From Proteus vulgaris (GTDB taxonomy: Bacteria; Pseudomonadota; Gammaproteobacteria; Enterobacterales; Enterobacteriaceae): a stretch of DNA of 64,000 nt. The notes beneath the pieces were generated by a model that did not search any database, was not told where the DNA came from, and saw only the letters and a list, made by a program, of their open reading frames with translations. Positions 33,587 to 43,431 of this stretch are shown here, one piece after another. The stretch lies in assembly GCF_023100685.1 (NCBI RefSeq), contig NZ_CP090064.1, forward strand, positions 682,001 through 746,000. Direction: 5' to 3'. A program made the translations under genes and the position numbers. Position 1 is the stretch's first letter; each line of letters starts with the position of its first letter.

Positions 33587-34225
33587 CTAAGGTTTTAACA
33601 CTGGTGTAATGAGTTGTATCGCTTGCTGAATTCGTAGATCAAAATTTGATTTTGGTGTCGGTGGAACGATCCCTAATGCAATTTGTCGTAAAGGCTCTGC
33701 GATCACCATGGCTAATAAAAGATCACTTAATGTAGCATAGTCGTAAGATCTAATTATTCCGTTTTTTTCTTGTTGCTGTAACCACTGCGTGAGTAAACTG
33801 CGTCCTCTTAATATCCCACTGCGTTGATATTTTTCCATAAGCACTTCACGGCTAGGAAAATCCTCTTGTAATAACTTATATAAACCGACGGCTTTATGAT
33901 TAAGTACCGTTTGAACCATGCTGTTTAAATGTTGTGATAACAACAGGATAAACTCATCAAAATCAGTGGCCTTATCATGAAAAATAGCGACGAAACTGTC
34001 TGTCCATGACAACACAATTTGTTCCACTAAATCTTCTTTATCTTTGGTAAAACGATAAATCGTTTTTTTGGCAATGCTTGCTTGTTTTGCAATTGCATCA
34101 ATGGTTGTTGCGCTGTAACCCTGCTCCAAAAGCAAACTTATGGTCGCTTCATATATTTCTTGGCGGATCTCTTCTTGAGGGCGGGCAGGGCGTCCTCGTT
34201 TTTGATTAATTTTGCTATCTGTCAT
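33587..34225 (-). CDS. TetR-family repressor
   Basis: A 212-residue regulator with an N-terminal TetR helix-turn-helix (EIYEATISLLLEQGYSATTI, then AKQASIAKKTIYRFTKDKE) and an all-helical ligand domain. A basic start (KINQKRGRPARPQEE) extends into the DNA. It is divergent from the PhlG-like hydrolase at 34318, and the 92-bp spacer has a perfect 31-bp palindrome that is the obvious operator. It probably represses both genes until an aromatic or polyketide ligand binds; the ligand is inferred only from the neighbour. GAGG lies upstream of its start. Confidence 0.85.
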   Translation of the reverse strand: MTDSKINQKRGRPARPQEEIRQEIYEATISLLLEQGYSATTIDAIAKQASIAKKTIYRFTKDKEDLVEQIVLSWTDSFVAIFHDKATDFDEFILLLSQHLNSMVQTVLNHKAVGLYKLLQEDFPSREVLMEKYQRSGILRGRSLLTQWLQQQEKNGIIRSYDYATLSDLLLAMVIAEPLRQIALGIVPPTPKSNFDLRIQQAIQLITPVLKP

Positions 34226-34272
34226 TTTTTAGCCTCTTTTTTAGTTGATTTTATCACTCTATAGGGATAAAA

Positions 34273-34303
34273 CAATTAGGAAACTAATTGAGTTTCCTAA
34301 TTG
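34273..34303. promoter_or_regulatory. 31-bp palindromic operator between tetR and the PhlG-like gene
   Basis: CAATTAGGAAACT and AGTTTCCTAATTG are perfect 13-bp inverted arms around the 5-bp centre AATTG. It ends 14 bp before the hydrolase start and overlaps its likely ribosome-binding/promoter region. Confidence 0.85.
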
Positions 34304-34317
34304 TCGGAGTTGAAAAA

Positions 34318-35019
34318 ATGAAAAAACAAACATTACATTTACCTTGGGCTTTAAATGACATTAACGAGCTTTTATCACCCGCGCCATTACGCTTAGAAAT
34401 GGGAATTGAAAGGGATGACGCTGGGCATTTAACAGTTGCAGTACGTACCGATTTGCATGGTTGTAAAGGTAAAATGCTAGAGTGGTGGTTTACCTTTTTT
34501 GAAACATCACAACATATTCGCTGGTGGCATCCTCATGATCATGTTGCTCACAATGGTTGGGATGATAAATGGATAAAAGGAAAGAGTTATATCGGTGCAT
34601 CAATTAAGGCAGTTGAGTCCTTAGGTGATATTCCACCTGTTGGAGCACAACTTAAATTCCATGATGCGAAAGATTTTTTTGATAACGCATTGTTAGAAGA
34701 AGCCTATAAAACAGGCGCACTTTCTGGTGCAGTATGTGCCACTATCGGTTTTGGCTCTGATGTGCAAACCGATGAAAATGGTGATCCTACCGATGGTAAA
34801 ATGGTGCATTTAACGCGAGATACGGATTGGGGATGTGTATTAAGAAGCCGTTTTTATTTAGGTCACTCATTAGAAAATCCAGCAGTGGAATTATCGGATG
34901 AGATAGCTTTTGGGTTATTGCAGCACTGTTATAACGAGTTTACTTATCTTTCTCGTTTCTTGCCGTCATTGTATTACGGTGAGCATGCGAATGGGGAGAA
35001 GGGCGCATTGCCTTGGTAA
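34318..35019 (+). CDS. PhlG-like (DAPG hydrolase family) protein
   Basis: A 233-residue protein with the signature of the 2,4-diacetylphloroglucinol hydrolase family: GCKGKMLEWWFTFFET, WWHPHDHVAHNGWDDKW and, near the end, FLPSLYYGEHA. The His and Glu residues in HPHDHVAHNGW and GEH match the zinc-binding pattern of PhlG, which cuts a C-C bond in the Pseudomonas antibiotic 2,4-DAPG. The natural substrate here is unknown. CGGAG precedes ATG 34318, so the upstream in-frame start at 34288, inside the operator, is rejected. Regulation by the divergent TetR protein is very likely. An ERIC element follows immediately. Confidence 0.8.
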   Translation: MKKQTLHLPWALNDINELLSPAPLRLEMGIERDDAGHLTVAVRTDLHGCKGKMLEWWFTFFETSQHIRWWHPHDHVAHNGWDDKWIKGKSYIGASIKAVESLGDIPPVGAQLKFHDAKDFFDNALLEEAYKTGALSGAVCATIGFGSDVQTDENGDPTDGKMVHLTRDTDWGCVLRSRFYLGHSLENPAVELSDEIAFGLLQHCYNEFTYLSRFLPSLYYGEHANGEKGALPW

Positions 35020-36479: not shown

Positions 36480-36495
36480 TGTGACAATAATCACA
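36480..36495. promoter_or_regulatory. CRP-type site 1
   Basis: TGTGA-CAATAA-TCACA matches the CRP consensus arms perfectly. It lies 235 bp from rdgC and 1.1 kb from the porin start. Confidence 0.75.
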
Positions 36496-36594
36496 TAATT
36501 TCATTTTTTAGCCATTTTTTGTTTACAATATGAAATCATTTTCAGATTTATCCCTGCATTAATTTACAAAACAAAAATCTTCTTGACGGACTCA

Positions 36595-36610
36595 TGTGAT
36601 AATTGTCACA
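36595..36610. promoter_or_regulatory. CRP-type site 2
   Basis: TGTGA-TAATTG-TCACA, perfect arms with the correct 6-bp spacer. Confidence 0.75.
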
Positions 36611-36651
36611 AAAACAGGAAAATATAAAGAGTGATTTTTCACAAACATCTA

Positions 36652-36667
36652 GGTGATCTGTATCACA
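36652..36667. promoter_or_regulatory. CRP-type site 3
   Basis: GGTGA-TCTGTA-TCACA, one mismatch to the arms. Its centre is 57 bp from that of site 2. Confidence 0.65.
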
Positions 36668-37163: not shown

Positions 37164-37179
37164 TGTGATACCTATCACT
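37164..37179. promoter_or_regulatory. CRP-type site 4
   Basis: TGTGA-TACCTA-TCACT, one mismatch. Its centre lies 52 bp upstream of site 5, five helical turns. Confidence 0.7.
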
Positions 37180-37215: not shown

Positions 37216-37231
37216 TGTGGGCTACATCACG
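37216..37231. promoter_or_regulatory. CRP-type site 5
   Basis: TGTGG-GCTACA-TCACG, two mismatches. A possible -10 (TAACAT, 37253-37258) places the site at -41.5 of a start near 37265, and site 4 at -93.5: a classical tandem CRP-activated layout. That start would leave a leader of about 310 nt. Another sigma-70-like promoter (TTGTCC 37481-37486, 17-bp spacer, TATACG 37504-37509) is nearer the porin gene. Confidence 0.55.
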
Positions 37232-37573
37232 AAAGAAGGGCTTTTTTTTGAGTAACATGCCAACGAAAACTCAACGACCTATTTCTTTTCCTAACAGAAA
37301 TAAAAGCAATGCCCTTATTTAAATATAATGAGGATATTATTTTTGTGTCTTATTGGTGATTACGTCTGTGTCAAGGAAATTAAAACCTTTAAGAAAATTT
37401 TGTAGAGTCATAATTAGTAGCTATAAAAATTATCAATTGTGAGAGCGATTTTCTTTTTCGAAATTCGTGGCAGAGATCTTTTGTCCGAATCTCAGGTCAA
37501 CTATATACGGCGGTATTATTTTTGACCTTAAAGGAAATCATAAAACTATAGAAAATAGATGGGTATTTTAATC

Positions 37574-38752
37574 ATGAAAAGCTTGAAGCCTCTAGCAGCA
37601 CTGGTTGGTTTGTTGGTTCTTTCTGGATCTGCAAACGCAGTAAACGTGTATAACGATAAAGGTACACGTTTTGATGTAAACGGTCAGTTCCGTTTAAAAA
37701 CACAAGTGACTAGCCAAAATCATGAAATGAAAATGAATGATGACGGTAGCCGTATCGGTTTCTTTGGTTCACACGAACTGACTAACGATATCAAAGTATT
37801 TGGTAAATTAGAGTGGGGTTCAGACACTCAAAAAACTAACAGTGACAACCCTAAATCAAACTTTGAAATGTACAACCGTGTAGGTTATGTCGGTTTCTCT
37901 CATCGTGATTATGGTCAAATTCAGTTTGGTCGTACTTATATTCCGATCGACTGGGTGAAAAAATCAAGCTACGGCTATGGTAACACCGGTGTATTCTACT
38001 TCAGCGATGTATTAGGTCGTTCAGTAGGTTATCACAATGGCTATGCTGATGGAAAAGGTGTTGGTAAAAACAACTTTATGACCCGTTTACCACAAACTAT
38101 TTTCTTAGAAACTAACCGTTATGAAGGCTTTAAATTAGCGGGTACAGTGACAGGTAAAACAGGTGAAGATGGTCGCCGTGTAGCGGGTGATATTACTCGT
38201 GCATATTCTATCGTTGGTTTTTATAAATCAACCTTTGGCTTAGAATTTGATGCTGGCTACTCTTCAGCTACTGGTGAAGCAACTACCTCTAAAAATAGTC
38301 CAAATAAAGGTAAAAACCCAGAGAATAGTATTTTAGCTTTTGGTGCGGAATACTTCTTCCCTGGCCGTGAATTTTCTATCGGTTTAGACTATGGTCAATC
38401 TCGTGGTAAAAATAACGGTTTTGCTTTAGAAGCAAATCAAGCTCCGACTAGTTGGAGTTCTGTTAAAGGCGACTGGAAAGCTGACTTATACGGTGTTGGT
38501 GTGAAATGGCACTGGGATCGTATCGAAAGTGGTATGTATGCGGGTTACTACCTGCGTGATGGTGATGCAAACACGTTCAACTACAAAAAAGAAACCTATA
38601 CTGTGGGTGTAGATAAACGTTTTGCAGTATCTAAATATAACAACTTACGTTTATTCGCTGAAATGGCATACGATGATGCTCGTAGCGATAACGTGAAGTA
38701 TGAAGATAAAAAACAATATATCTTCGAAACAGGTATGCGTCTGTACTTCTAG
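37574..38752 (+). CDS. General outer-membrane porin
   Basis: A 392-residue trimeric-porin-type protein of the OmpC/OmpF superfamily. The signal peptide is MKSLKPLAALVGLLVLSGSANA. The mature chain starts VNVYNDKGTRFDVNGQFRLK, with the barrel motifs DDGSRIGFFGSHEL and YGQIQFGRTYIPIDW (constriction-loop region), and ends in the outer-membrane signature FETGMRLYF. Sixteen strands are expected. ATG 37574 is chosen because it starts a normal signal peptide; an ATG five codons earlier is possible. It stands at the head of a nucleotide-salvage cluster behind five CRP-type sites, so it probably admits nucleotides or RNA fragments. That role is inferred. Confidence 0.85.
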   Translation: MKSLKPLAALVGLLVLSGSANAVNVYNDKGTRFDVNGQFRLKTQVTSQNHEMKMNDDGSRIGFFGSHELTNDIKVFGKLEWGSDTQKTNSDNPKSNFEMYNRVGYVGFSHRDYGQIQFGRTYIPIDWVKKSSYGYGNTGVFYFSDVLGRSVGYHNGYADGKGVGKNNFMTRLPQTIFLETNRYEGFKLAGTVTGKTGEDGRRVAGDITRAYSIVGFYKSTFGLEFDAGYSSATGEATTSKNSPNKGKNPENSILAFGAEYFFPGREFSIGLDYGQSRGKNNGFALEANQAPTSWSSVKGDWKADLYGVGVKWHWDRIESGMYAGYYLRDGDANTFNYKKETYTVGVDKRFAVSKYNNLRLFAEMAYDDARSDNVKYEDKKQYIFETGMRLYF

Positions 38753-38788
38753 TCCTTTCAAAGAGACTGTTTGACAGAAGTAACGAAA

Positions 38789-38808
38789 GGAGAGCCATTT
38801 TGCTCTCC
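38789..38808 (+). other. Hairpin between porin and cpdB
   Basis: GGAGAGC-CATTTT-GCTCTCC, a 7-bp stem without a T-run, in the 83-nt gap. It could reduce read-through or stabilise the porin mRNA, giving a high porin to low cpdB ratio. Confidence 0.5.
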
Positions 38809-38835
38809 TGTTAACCAATATATAAGGGGTGTGTA

Positions 38836-40791
38836 ATGGTTAAGAATGTGTTGAAAATTTCAACATTAGCAATGTTTGTCGCATTCAACGTGAATGCTGC
38901 GACAGTCGATCTTCGTATTATGGAGACGTCTGATGTTCACAGTAACTTAATCGACTTTGACTACTTCAAAGACAAACCAACAGAACAGTTTGGTTATGTC
39001 CGTACTGCTAATTTAATTAAAGCAGCAAAAGCTGAAGCAACCAATGCGATTTTAGTTGATAACGGCGACTTGATCCAAGGTAGCCCACTGGCTGACTACC
39101 AAGCAGCTAAAGGCTTAGAAAAAGGCGAATCTCATCCAGCTCACCAGCTGATGAACACCATGGGCTACACAGTCGGTAACTTTGGTAACCATGAATTTAA
39201 CTATGGTTTAGATTACCTGAAAAAAGCCATTGCTGGTGCTAAATTCCCTTACATCAACGCCAACGTGATGGATGCGAAAACAGGCAAAAACTATTTCACA
39301 CCTTATATCATTGTTGATACACCAGTAAAAGATCGTGATGGTAAAGAACACACTATCAAGATTGGTTATATCGGCTTCGTACCACCACAGATCTTAATCT
39401 GGGATAAAGCCAATCTGGATGGTAAGGTCGTTGTAAATGATATTACAGAAACAGCGAAAAAATTCGTCCCTCAAATGAAAAAAGAGGGTGCTGACCTGAT
39501 TGTGGCTATTCCTCACTCTGGTTTTGCGTCAGAGCCGTACAAAGCAATGGCTGAAAACTCTGTTTATTATTTAAGTGAAGTTGAAGGCATCAATGCAATC
39601 ATGTTTGGTCACGCTCACGGCGTATTCCCAAGCAAAGAATTTGAAGGTATTAAAGGCGTAGATACAGCGAAAGGTACTGTAAACGGTGTTCCTGCTGTTA
39701 TGCCTGGCCAATGGGGTGATCACTTAGGTGTTGTTGATATGGTTATCAATAACGACAGCGGTAAATGGGTGATGACTGAAGCAACAGGTGAAGCGCGTCC
39801 TATCTTTGATAAAGCAAACAAAAAAGCATTAGTTGAACGTGATGCTGAATTAGCTCAAATCATCGAAAAAGCACACCAAGGTACCCGTGATTTCGTGGGT
39901 AAACACATTGGTAAAGCTTCTGCCAACATGTACAGCTTCTTAGCATTAGTACAAAGTGATCCAACTGTACAAATTGTTAATGATGCACAAGTTGATTACA
40001 CCAAACACTTTATTCAAGGTGATCCGAACTTAGACGGTTTACCAGTATTAGGTGCAGCTGCGCCATTTAAAGCGGGTGGTCGTAAAAATGCACCAGCAGA
40101 CTTCGTAGAAGTTGAAAAAGGTGACTTAACATTCCGTAACGCTGCAGACTTATATCTGTATCCAAACACATTAGTGGTTGTTAAAGCGACCGGTGCGGAT
40201 GTTGTTGAATGGTTAGAATGTTCAGCGGGTATGTGGAACCAAGTTGATCCTAACTCAACTAAACCACAAGAACTGATCAACTGGGATGGTTTCCGTACTT
40301 ATAACTTCGACACCATTAGTGGTGTGAACTATAAAGTTGACTTAACTCAACCAGCTAAATATGACGTTGATTGCCAAGTCGTTAATAAAGATGCGAATCG
40401 TATCAAAGAAGTGACTTACGAAGGCAAACCAATCGATCCTAAAGCAACATTCCTGATCGCAACAAATAACTACCGTGGATACGGCGGTAAGTTTGCTGGT
40501 ACAGGTGAAGCGAATATTGCGTTTGCATCTCCAGATGAAAACCGTGCAATCTTAGCTTCTTACATTGCTAAACAAACTAAAGAAAAAGGTGAAGTTGCGA
40601 CTAAAGCCGCTAACAACTGGTCATTCTTACCTATTAAGACTGATAAAGCGTTAGATGTCCGTTTTGAAACTTCACCAAGTGAAAAAGCGGCTACATTTAT
40701 TAAAGATTTCGCTCAATATCCAATGACCTTCGTGGAAAATGATGAAATTGGTTTTGCAATTTACAAAATCGATTTAACTGAGAAGAAATAA
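38836..40791 (+). CDS. cpdB: 2',3'-cyclic-nucleotide 2'-phosphodiesterase / 3'-nucleotidase CpdB
   Basis: A 651-residue periplasmic enzyme (E. coli CpdB 647). A signal peptide ([10 protein letters not shown] end) is followed by the metallophosphatase domain: [41 protein letters not shown] and FGHAHGVFP provide the two-metal ligands. A 5'-nucleotidase C-terminal domain follows, with [12 protein letters not shown]. It opens 2',3'-cyclic nucleotides, the products of RNase I, and then removes the 3'-phosphate to give nucleosides. Adjacent porin, RNase I and 5'-nucleotidase genes make it the middle step of RNA use. A terminator follows. Confidence 0.93.
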
Positions 40792-40798
40792 GCAATTA

Positions 40799-40826
40799 AA
40801 CCTGCCCGTTCAGGGCAGGTTTTTTC
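40799..40826 (+). terminator. Terminator after cpdB
   Basis: CCTGCCC-GTTCA-GGGCAGG with flanking A and T runs (TTTTTTC). A second hairpin (AAAGAGT / ACTCTTT, about 40843-40865) follows just before the RNase gene, so the latter may be transcribed partly by read-through or from its own promoter. Confidence 0.88.
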
Positions 40827-40876
40827 TTACCTTTTTGAACCAAAAGAGTGGTGTTATGACTCTTTAAGGGGATTTT

Positions 40877-41653
40877 ATGCGCTTTATGAAGCTATTGCCT
40901 GCTGCTTTTGCGTTAGTGTTAGCAGGATGTGCAACGCAAGCACCTGAAATTACAGAACCATTAAAACCTCAAGCTAAATTAGTTGAAGGCGTATCTTGTA
41001 TTTTACCTGATGCTCCAACAGCACCTTACGACTACATTGCTTCTAATGATCGCTATGGTCAAAACAGCACAGCATCAACAGATTACTTTAAGTTAGCGAT
41101 TAACTACTCACCGGCTTTTTGTGATTATAAAAGTAATAATATTAAACGTTTAAATAACGATAATGAAAAAGATCGTGCAAAACGTGAGTACGATAAATTT
41201 GAAATCCAATGCTTCTCAGATAATAAATTTGGTTGGATTGTTCATGGGCTGTGGGCTGAAACCTGTGATGGCAAATCATGGGAAGACTGCCGTGATTGGA
41301 AAGACATACGCAAGCATCCTCGTTTATGTAAAGGCGATTTACCACCTTTAGAATACTCTGCTATCAAACCTTATCTGTGTGATTCTCCGGGTATCGATCT
41401 GTTACAAGGCGAATGGGAAAAACATGGTGTTTGTGCGTTTGATACACCAGATGCATTCTTTGGTAAACAAAAAGAGTTGTATGAAGCGTTAGTATTACCA
41501 GAAGGCCGTCCTTCAAATAGTGCATTGATTAAGTTCTTAAAAGAACACAATCCATCACTGAAGGATAAAGAAATTCAAATTAATCGAGATGAATTCTATA
41601 TCTGTTATAGCAAAGATTTCGAAGTAATTGATTGTCCGAAACGTGAATTTTGA
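40877..41653 (+). CDS. rna: RNase I (T2 family) with a lipoprotein signal
   Basis: A 258-residue RNase T2 protein. The two catalytic boxes are visible: VHGLWAETCDGK (about 121-132) with the first histidine, and EWEKHGVCAF with Glu, Lys and the second histidine. Cysteines around CDGKSWEDCRDW and CKGDLPP fit the family's disulfides. The N-terminus ends in a lipobox (ALVLAGC-ATQ), so the enzyme should be membrane-anchored, whereas E. coli RNase I is a soluble periplasmic protein. It cuts RNA to 2',3'-cyclic nucleotides, which the neighbouring CpdB converts. It lies 19 nt before the nucleotidase gene. Confidence 0.9.
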   Translation: MRFMKLLPAAFALVLAGCATQAPEITEPLKPQAKLVEGVSCILPDAPTAPYDYIASNDRYGQNSTASTDYFKLAINYSPAFCDYKSNNIKRLNNDNEKDRAKREYDKFEIQCFSDNKFGWIVHGLWAETCDGKSWEDCRDWKDIRKHPRLCKGDLPPLEYSAIKPYLCDSPGIDLLQGEWEKHGVCAFDTPDAFFGKQKELYEALVLPEGRPSNSALIKFLKEHNPSLKDKEIQINRDEFYICYSKDFEVIDCPKREF

Positions 41654-41672
41654 TCTTAGGGATAAATTTTAA

Positions 41673-43295
41673 ATGAACCATAAATATAAACTCGTTGCAC
41701 TTGCTGTAAGCTCAGTCTTATTAGCAGGTTGTGCAAAGAACTACGACGAAGCTAATGTTGTTGATGTGCGCGTTATCGCAATGAACGACTTCCACGGTGC
41801 GCTAAAAGCGCCAGGTCCAAACAAACCTGGTGGCATTGAGCATATGGCTACGTTAATTAAAGAAATGAAGAAAGATAACCCGAACAACATCGTTGTTGCG
41901 GCGGGTGATATGGTTGGTGCAAGCCCACTGTTATCTTCAATGTTCCATGATGAGCCTTCAATTGAAGCATTATCATTAGCAGGCTTAGAAGCAACTTCTG
42001 TGGGTAACCATGAATTTGATAAAGGCATGGGCGAATTACTGCGTAAACAAAACGGTGGTTGCCACCCAGTAACGGGGTGCCAAGGCCCAACTGAGTTTAA
42101 AGGCGCAGATTTCCAATACTTAGCAGCTAACGTTATTGTTAACGAAACTGGCAAAACATTATTCCCAGAATACGTTATTAAAGAATTCAACGGTATTCCT
42201 GTTGCATTCATCGGTTTAACTTTAGAAGGTACTGCGGCTATCGTAACACCTAAAGGAACCGAAGGTTTAAGCTTCCACAATGAAGCAAAAACAATTAACG
42301 CATTAGTGCCTCAGTTAAAAGCAAAAGGCGTTCAAGCAATTGGTGTTCTGATCCACGAAGGTGCTGCACAGCGTCGTGATGGTGGTCCAGTTAATATCAA
42401 CGCATGTAATGGTATTACAGGTAAAGTTCTGGGTGTTGTTGAGCAATTAGATCCAGCTATCGACTTCGTTGTTACTGGTCATACTCACCAAGCTTACAAC
42501 TGTACTATCAACGGTAAATCAGTGACATCGGCACAGTCTAATGGTGCAATGTTAACGCGTATCGACCTGAAATTGGATAAAACAACGAAAGATGTTGTTG
42601 ATATCGAAGCTCGTAACATTTGGGTTGATAACCGTAAATACGAAAAAGATCCAGCAATCACTAAACTGTTAGAAGCTTACGAAAAAATTGCTACCCCATT
42701 AGCTAACCGCATTATCGGTAAGTTAGAAGGCAATTTAACTAAGCAAACTAACGATGCGGGTGAATCTGCACTGGGTCAAGTGATTGCTGATGCACATTTA
42801 TATACGGCTAAACCAAAAGATATGGGTGGCGCACAAATCGCGTTTATGAACAGCGGTGGTATTCGTGCTGATATGACCGGTGGTGATGTTTCTTATAACG
42901 CAATCTACACTGTACAGCCATTCTCTAACGTACTGTTAACTCAAACATTAACGGGTGAGCAAATCAAGCGCCTGTTAGAACAACAGTGGGATCGTTCACG
43001 TCCACAAGTGTTAGCGATTTCAGGTAACTTCCAGTACACATGGGATAGCAAAGCATCTAATGGTAACCGTGTTATCGTTGAATCAATGAAAATTGACGGC
43101 AAACCAGTGGATATGAAAGCATCTTACCGTGTTGTGGCTAACGAATACTTAGCAACAGGTGGTAGTAACTTCTCTGTACTGAAAGAAGGTAAAGATCCAG
43201 TTTACAGCGTGCCAGATGTTGATGCAGTCGTGAAATACTTTGCTGAGCAGTCTCCAATTGCTCAACCAAAAGCGAATAACATCACACGTAAATAA
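41673..43295 (+). CDS. Lipoprotein 5'-nucleotidase / bifunctional metallophosphatase (UshA/NutA-like)
   Basis: A 540-residue lipoprotein (lipobox SSVLLAGC-AKN). The metallophosphatase domain shows VIAMNDFHGALK, VAAGDMVGASPLLSS, SVGNHEFDKGMGELL, LIHEGA and VTGHTHQAYNC. The C-terminal nucleotidase domain has FMNSGGIRADM and the substrate-stacking region YLATGGSNFSVL. Such enzymes dephosphorylate 5'-nucleotides, and often NAD or UDP-sugars, to nucleosides for uptake. It follows the RNase gene by 19 nt and completes an envelope pathway from RNA to nucleosides. Close relatives are UshA and NutA; I cannot decide between them. Confidence 0.87.
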   Translation: MNHKYKLVALAVSSVLLAGCAKNYDEANVVDVRVIAMNDFHGALKAPGPNKPGGIEHMATLIKEMKKDNPNNIVVAAGDMVGASPLLSSMFHDEPSIEALSLAGLEATSVGNHEFDKGMGELLRKQNGGCHPVTGCQGPTEFKGADFQYLAANVIVNETGKTLFPEYVIKEFNGIPVAFIGLTLEGTAAIVTPKGTEGLSFHNEAKTINALVPQLKAKGVQAIGVLIHEGAAQRRDGGPVNINACNGITGKVLGVVEQLDPAIDFVVTGHTHQAYNCTINGKSVTSAQSNGAMLTRIDLKLDKTTKDVVDIEARNIWVDNRKYEKDPAITKLLEAYEKIATPLANRIIGKLEGNLTKQTNDAGESALGQVIADAHLYTAKPKDMGGAQIAFMNSGGIRADMTGGDVSYNAIYTVQPFSNVLLTQTLTGEQIKRLLEQQWDRSRPQVLAISGNFQYTWDSKASNGNRVIVESMKIDGKPVDMKASYRVVANEYLATGGSNFSVLKEGKDPVYSVPDVDAVVKYFAEQSPIAQPKANNITRK

Positions 43296-43321: not shown

Positions 43322-43431
43322 CGCACCTTTTACTTTGGTAAGGGGTGCGTAAATAAATAAAGAGAGCAAAGTGTTGAACACAAAGGGTCCATCCCTACCT
43401 TTGTATTCATTGCGCACTTTGCTCTTTTTTT
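43322..43431 (+). terminator. Double hairpin and branched terminator after the nucleotidase gene
   Basis: A first hairpin (CGCACCTTT...AGGGGTGCG, 43322-43349) is followed by a long stem AGAGCAAAGTG / CACTTTGCTCT (43363-43373, 43415-43425) ending in TTTTTTT. Its loop contains a further stem ACAAAGG / CCTTTGT. The 3' structure is unusually elaborate. Confidence 0.85.

Follow-up and report, generated by a model that had tools for sequence, protein, structure and literature searches.

The window considered here (64,000 nucleotides, bases 682001-746000 of the 4,387,544-base single contig, 4.39 Mb, that was searched as the genome of Proteus vulgaris) carries four consecutive plus-strand genes in the open reading frame (ORF) listing, bracketed by rdgC and a nitroreductase gene. 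They encode a porin, the 2',3'-cyclic phosphodiesterase/3'-nucleotidase CpdB, a ribonuclease (RNase) of the T2 family (rna) and a nucleotidase:

37559..38752, plus strand: general-porin family protein (PF00267), with a second in-frame ATG at 37574
38836..40791, plus strand: CpdB, 2',3'-cyclic phosphodiesterase/3'-nucleotidase (NCBIfam equivalogs NF006938 and TIGR01390), with a secretion signal read by eye
40877..41653, plus strand: RNase T2-family ribonuclease (PF00445), predicted lipoprotein (LAGC, Cys18, Ala at +2; lipobox read by eye)
41673..43295, plus strand: nucleotidase of the UshA superfamily, not UshA itself (Pfam and NCBIfam), predicted lipoprotein (LAGC, Cys20, Ala at +2; lipobox read by eye)

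An earlier note on this DNA had described four adjacent same-strand genes of these families, which the ORFs and Pfam matches bear out; it had used the second in-frame ATG (37574) as the start of the porin, which is placed here at 37559. Its statement that the counterparts in Escherichia coli are scattered is true of K-12 (cpdB at 4.43 Mb, rna at 0.644 Mb and ushA at 0.505 Mb).

The porin matches Pfam Porin_1 (1.6e-10) and scores far under the OmpC and OmpF NCBIfam cut-offs; its structure model, made from 12 closely related rows, had a mean predicted local distance difference test score (pLDDT) of 30.2 and was not used. CpdB contains the Pfam domains Metallophos and 5_nucleotid_C and lies above both equivalog cut-offs (1108.9 against 486 bits for NF006938 and 1065.6 against 883 bits for TIGR01390). 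The RNase, the one RNase T2 gene product found in this genome, matches Pfam Ribonuclease_T2 (5.3e-08, 33.6 bits against a cut-off of 26 bits), with no NCBIfam model matching at E 0.001, and is 23% identical to E. coli RNase I. Its residues H123, E179, K182 and H183, which we take to be catalytic, are invariant in all 37 aligned rows (the window, 35 of the 79 loci described below, and E. coli RNase I). Activity of the RNase family, giving 2',3'-cyclic products, is predicted from the family chemistry and these conserved residues. The nucleotidase has both of its family's domains (Pfam Metallophos and 5_nucleotid_C, 1.6e-40) as well as the motifs that presumably form the metal site, and passes no NCBIfam cut-off; by these family features it is classed in the metallophosphoesterase 5'-nucleotidase superfamily. 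Identity with UshA was ruled out (170.3 bits against the UshA cut-off of 600 bits), the true UshA being encoded elsewhere in the same genome (G000, at 3376228, 3.38 Mb; 938.4 bits) and a third member of the nucleotidase family at 2.11 Mb.

The N-termini of both the RNase and the nucleotidase carry an LAGC lipobox followed by alanine, recognised by inspection rather than by a predictor. Lipobox-like ends are present in all 18 RNase N-termini from Proteus, Photorhabdus, Xenorhabdus hominickii and Moellerella, those of X. hominickii and Moellerella being less canonical (Ala at -3), and LAGC is also found in the nucleotidases of X. hominickii, Photorhabdus australis and G147, a genome from another genus. 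Lipoproteins are sorted by the +2 rule, under which the outer membrane would be the predicted destination of both proteins.

Linkage in relatives, which the earlier note had proposed to survey, held in Proteus and X. hominickii and, for cpdB-rna, in Photorhabdus and Moellerella, and failed at four related cpdB loci. The RNase gene is flanked by cpdB and the nucleotidase gene in 20 of 20 Proteus genomes, including the present one (3.8-kb stretches, in which both neighbours are partly visible). RNase relatives were confirmed 125 times in named genome contigs, and the 80 that were kept represent 79 distinct loci, some of them on short stretches. Among these loci all four genes are found in all 11 named Proteus loci and in both X. 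hominickii loci, which are two contigs of one assembly with identical gene positions; cpdB-rna is found in all five named Photorhabdus loci, two of which also have the nucleotidase gene, and the Moellerella locus has cpdB-rna only. Each of the other 60 loci (mostly Pasteurellaceae and Janthinobacterium) has the RNase gene without a relative of cpdB, the porin or the nucleotidase gene within the stretch examined, and RNase relatives from beyond the four genera show 34-46% identity in the best segment. Because the gene order is conserved, chance adjacency of the four genes is very unlikely. The porin of one Proteus genome (G018, L059:5554-6752) gives an alignment broken into three segments, which looks like the effect of a frameshift.

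A family sample of 159 genomes contains RNase matches with E below 1e-100 in 4 genomes and 32 weaker ones among the 36 genomes reported at E 0.001. Close relatives of the nucleotidase (E 1e-60; 4 of the 159 genomes, one partial) and of the porin (E 1e-40; 3 of the 159, one only 35% identical) are rare. The six non-Proteus cpdB genes in this sample that are most like the window's (G195, G031, G147, G185, G163 and G150; 77-85% identical) adjoin an RNase gene in G195 and G185 only. Some of these results count against a fixed four-gene set: cpdB has no RNase gene beside it in G031, G147, G150 and G163 (4 of the 6; cpdB 77-84% identical), and in all 12 Photorhabdus genomes, where cpdB and rna are adjacent, the porin survives only as fragments (at most 92 aligned residues), with the nucleotidase full-length in 2, in two pieces in 1 and not found within the stretch examined in 9. 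The gene cpdB still adjoins rdgC in G031 and G147, and its neighbourhood differs in G163 and G150. In G147 cpdB is separated from the nitroreductase gene by a transposase-like ORF pair, recognised by eye, and an OprD-family porin gene, away from cpdB, is immediately followed by a nucleotidase relative (60% identical). From this distribution across Proteus, X. hominickii, Photorhabdus, Moellerella and other relatives, the cluster is judged to predate Proteus and its parts to be separable, cpdB-rna being by the same comparison the longest-retained part in Photorhabdus and Moellerella, and the porin and nucleotidase genes apparently losable.

The region upstream of the porin contains two sites resembling those bound by the cyclic AMP (cAMP) receptor protein (CRP), together with a putative -10 element and leader:

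37164..37179, plus strand: distal CRP-like site TGTGATACCTATCACT, centre at 37171.5 (-93.5), 9/10 consensus
37216..37231, plus strand: proximal CRP-like site TGTGGGCTACATCACG, centre at 37223.5 (-41.5), 8/10 consensus
37253..37258, plus strand: -10 hexamer TAACAT, 37 nt from the first base of the proximal site
37265..37573, plus strand: predicted 5' leader of the porin mRNA, about 310 nt, placed from the -10 box

The centres of TGTGATACCTATCACT and TGTGGGCTACATCACG are 52 bp apart. Transcription is predicted from the -10 box to start at about 37265, and CRP would sit at -41.5 and -93.5, given the distance of 37 nt from the first base of the proximal site to that of the -10 hexamer. As far as sequence can tell, the region has the features of a CRP-activated promoter, namely two consensus sites, a conserved spacing and a -10 element in register. 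When leaders were aligned, that of the porin proved conserved within Proteus and little conserved in X. hominickii and Photorhabdus; similar or longer leaders also lie behind the CRP pairs of X. hominickii and of two OprD-like porins.

Such pairs are scarce in the genome. A strict search of the whole genome, with a backwards control, in which both TGTG-N7-TCAC cores had to match perfectly and eight spacings were permitted, returned 2 places (control, 0) with identical spacing, the second being upstream of deoC (family match), ahead of deoA- and deoB-like genes recognised by eye. A NupC/NupG-family carrier gene (L169:3895-5214) stands directly upstream of deoC on the same strand in this Proteus genome. 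A relaxed search at fixed spacing with up to three mismatches returned 16 rows, representing 10 distinct places, where the control gave 4 rows; places with a nucleoside link are upstream of deoC, udp, nupC and cdd, and the further places include this cluster and an OprD-like porin. The pairs of udp, nupC and deoC share the spacing of the cluster, that of cdd less exactly. The E. coli deoC pair, whose deoP2 geometry serves as the comparison, is spaced 53 bp when scored alike. If a CRP site is taken to be 22 bp long, a gap of 30-31 bp between sites, as at udp, corresponds to 52-53 bp between centres. This gap is the spacing given for udp in the text of a published survey (PMC3454398).

The OprD-family porin gene with a 52-bp CRP pair (L191:3110-4986, about 1809609-1811485 of the present genome) has a -10 candidate at the same offset. 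A relative of this porin in G147 (L143; 76% identical) is followed directly by the nucleotidase relative. The OprD-family porin is a candidate nucleotide or nucleoside porin.

All 11 named Proteus loci have the 52-bp pair, as do X. hominickii and two of the five named Photorhabdus loci; among Photorhabdus genomes it is present in 5 of 12, and in one of the 12 (L215) the upstream DNA was too short for a judgement. When three intergenic regions were shuffled with dinucleotides preserved, a pair arose in 0, 1 and 0 of 1000 shuffles, and the spacer between the sites varies widely in sequence among genera. TATTAT occurs at the same 37-nt offset in X. hominickii and Photorhabdus L211, the -10 element is shifted by one base in three of the five Photorhabdus genomes having the pair, and the OprD-like porins of Proteus and G147 have TAGCAT at the 37-nt offset, tied with another candidate. 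Only porin fragments lie between the pair and cpdB in these five Photorhabdus genomes, which fits a promoter still serving cpdB. The promoter evidence suggests that porin-cpdB may be under the catabolic control common to nucleoside genes. Other observations speak against this: 6 of the 11 judgeable Photorhabdus genomes have cpdB-rna without the pair; Moellerella has a good proximal site (9/10) and a poor site (6/10) 52 bp upstream of it; relaxed pairs also occur at gnd, in the nhaB upstream region, inside a CsgG-like gene and before the ATP-synthase subunit I gene; the best -10 offsets of the nucleoside genes differ (42 for deoC, 36 for udp and nupC, 38 for cdd); and the slightly better pair of cdd is spaced 50 bp.

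No convincing box for the nucleoside regulator CytR was found between the CRP sites of the 14 cluster spacers, which were scored for half-sites with a consensus that we assume to represent CytR. The fraction of shuffles reaching the observed score was 0.03 in L064, whose spacer is identical to the window's, and at least 0.16 in the other 13, so that half-sites beat most shuffles in only 1 of the 14 spacers; among the comparison spacers they score at deoC (0.03) and cdd (0.04) and not at udp (0.16) and nupC (0.54), with the OprD-like porin at 0.003. The scores of the cluster spacers and of udp and nupC are counted against the salvage interpretation preferred below. A CytR orthologue is encoded in this genome (68% identical to E. 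coli CytR, the next two matches being 35 and 37% identical), and P. mirabilis and Photorhabdus luminescens are listed among the genomes with CytR in the survey cited above (PMC3454398). The survey's text proposes one new member of the CytR regulon, ycdZ; cpdB, ushA and ompC are absent from its main text, although both species belong to its genome set (PMC3454398). CytR control of the cluster is here a weak prediction.

Three hairpins bear on the structure of the transcript:

38788..38809, plus strand: weak hairpin in the porin-cpdB gap, lacking a T run (z -1.25 for the fold of 38755-38836, matched by 18 of 200 shuffles)
40798..40827, plus strand: terminator-like hairpin and T run between cpdB and rna (-19 kcal/mol, z -5.58)
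43359..43429, plus strand: terminator-like hairpin and T run downstream of the nucleotidase gene (-32.8 kcal/mol, z -7.08)

The terminator scan reported nothing between porin and cpdB. The hairpin after cpdB folds in all 18 intergenic regions from four genera; X. hominickii and Moellerella have lost its T run, which is interrupted in L067 and P. mirabilis L071. This hairpin separates porin-cpdB from rna-nucleotidase and weighs against a single operon, which should have no internal terminator. No convincing promoter of rna's own was found by eye or by a promoter scan that covers one promoter type and missed the CRP-type promoter as well. The likeliest structure is either an attenuated polycistron or two neighbouring units.

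The interpretation preferred here, with a probability of about 0.6, is that the four genes form an envelope nucleotide-salvage set under CRP control, of which the use of RNA would be the fullest expression. RNase T2 enzymes make 2',3'-cyclic nucleotides, which CpdB turns into nucleosides. Under carbon shortage, cAMP-CRP binding at -41.5 and -93.5 would switch on the porin-cpdB promoter, and CytR might repress it when nucleosides are absent. The porin would let in RNA fragments and nucleotides, and the lipoprotein-tethered RNase would cleave RNA to 2',3'-cyclic and 3'-nucleotides, as its family chemistry and conserved catalytic residues indicate. Periplasmic CpdB, identified at equivalog level, would convert these to nucleosides, and the lipoprotein nucleotidase, judging from its family, would dephosphorylate other mononucleotides. 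Nucleosides would then enter through NupC-type carriers and be consumed by the Udp, Cdd and Deo enzymes. Expression of rna-nucleotidase would probably be lower, or separate, owing to the hairpin after cpdB. We infer that RNA is the natural food of the cluster and that the porin passes RNA fragments or nucleotides. The nucleotidase behind the OprD-family porin in G147, with a pair of the same spacing, is counted in favour of a salvage set. The earlier note had seen one catabolic unit feeding on RNA, an interpretation that appears reasonable and gains from the promoter: linkage and the shared spacing of the CRP pairs agree with it, and the hairpin after cpdB, the separability of the parts and their incomplete retention among relatives make the unit looser than claimed.

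A rather doubtful alternative is that porin-cpdB, under CRP control, and rna-nucleotidase, transcribed separately, are two units that merely adjoin. It would account for the presence of the hairpin after cpdB in all 18 regions, with a T run in most Proteus and five Photorhabdus regions, for the gap of just 19 bp between rna and the nucleotidase gene, and for the nucleotidase beside another porin in G147. However, only about 55 nt separate the hairpin from the start of rna, where no plus-strand promoter was reported by the scan, itself limited to one promoter type and blind to the CRP-type promoter; P. mirabilis L071 and L067 have an interrupted T run, and the RNase gene, where kept in Photorhabdus and Moellerella, always adjoins cpdB. 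It is less probable still that the genes serve general nucleotide or phosphate salvage, acting mainly on free nucleotides, NAD or cyclic dinucleotides with RNA as a secondary substrate. The nucleotidase belongs to a broad family, cpdB occurs without the RNase gene at four related loci, and E. coli CpdB is described as also acting on cyclic dinucleotides (available text of PMC4905662 and PMC7922932), all of which would suit such a role, but it leaves unexplained why each of the 20 Proteus and 12 Photorhabdus genomes examined retains the RNase gene next to cpdB.

The RNase might instead act in the turnover of internal RNA or in signalling by 2',3'-cyclic nucleotides, a role that has been suggested for E. 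coli RNase I, with CpdB clearing the signal. All detectable 2',3'-cyclic nucleoside monophosphates (2',3'-cNMPs) in E. coli are reported to be made by RNase I (text of PMC8765455), yet the lipobox-like end in 18 of 18 N-termini (Ala at -3 in X. hominickii and Moellerella) would put the RNase outside the inner membrane, and an internal role is considered improbable. Beyond the CRP-controlled salvage set itself, a bolder version is offered tentatively: an inducible outer-envelope RNA-eating set in Proteus and relatives, with a lipoprotein RNase T2 and nucleotidase, a dedicated porin and CRP-CytR logic, in which RNA-derived cytidine would induce its own supply and the nucleotidase could be re-paired with an OprD-type porin under the same type of promoter.

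Further features lie upstream of the porin promoter:

36480..36667, no strand assigned: three CRP-like sites (36480, 36595 and 36652), 10/10, 10/10 and 9/10 to TGTGA-N6-TCACA

These sites are about 510-680 bp upstream of the porin pair, with no ORF of at least 100 amino acids between them and the porin. Their spacings of 115 and 57 bp are the same in five Proteus regions (the present one, L064, L070, L071 and L073) and were not found in L078, L074 and L077. At 33587-35019 of the window, a TetR-type regulator is divergent from a protein with a DAPG-hydrolase (PhlG) domain, and Rfam gave nothing in the window at the gathering score.

Feeding on extracellular DNA is well documented, in Vibrio among others, and the nearest known analogue of the present system is the extracellular-DNA route of Vibrio cholerae (Xds/Dns, OmpK, UshA/CpdB/PhoX and NupC), as set out in the text of PMC4723616. 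Both comprise a nuclease, an outer-membrane pore, periplasmic nucleotidases including CpdB, and nucleoside carriers, and Vibrio nucleoside uptake is stated there to be acted on by CRP and CytR (PMC4723616). The Vibrio route takes DNA with secreted nucleases (PMC4723616), whereas Proteus has a predicted lipoprotein RNase T2; the Proteus genes are clustered. E. coli RNase I (rna), CpdB and UshA belong to the same enzyme families and are encoded by unlinked genes; the two sets differ in that the RNases are 23% identical and the Proteus nucleotidase is not an UshA orthologue. The CytR-CRP nucleoside regulon (deo, udp, cdd, nupC and tsx) has tandem CRP sites, as found upstream of the Proteus porin, but no convincing CytR box was found at the Proteus cluster. 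The accessible text of PMC3105977 names cpdB among the CRP targets of E. coli.

No description of this cluster was found in the open literature, as judged from titles and the starts of abstracts with subscription journals mostly outside coverage, and the word 'operon' is not used in the main texts of published work on the distribution of cpdB-like and ushA-like genes. What is new is the arrangement of known enzymes and a regulatory prediction, the CRP-site pair upstream of the porin; this pair, the lipoboxes on the RNase and nucleotidase, and the terminator-like hairpin between cpdB and rna go beyond the earlier note. If the salvage-set reading is true, a linked, apparently catabolite-controlled RNA route would offer a tractable system for studying whether enterics feed on the RNA of hosts or neighbours, and would give an RNase T2 enzyme an envelope-side role. 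Porins would also join a nucleoside regulon, and two porin genes would gain a testable substrate.

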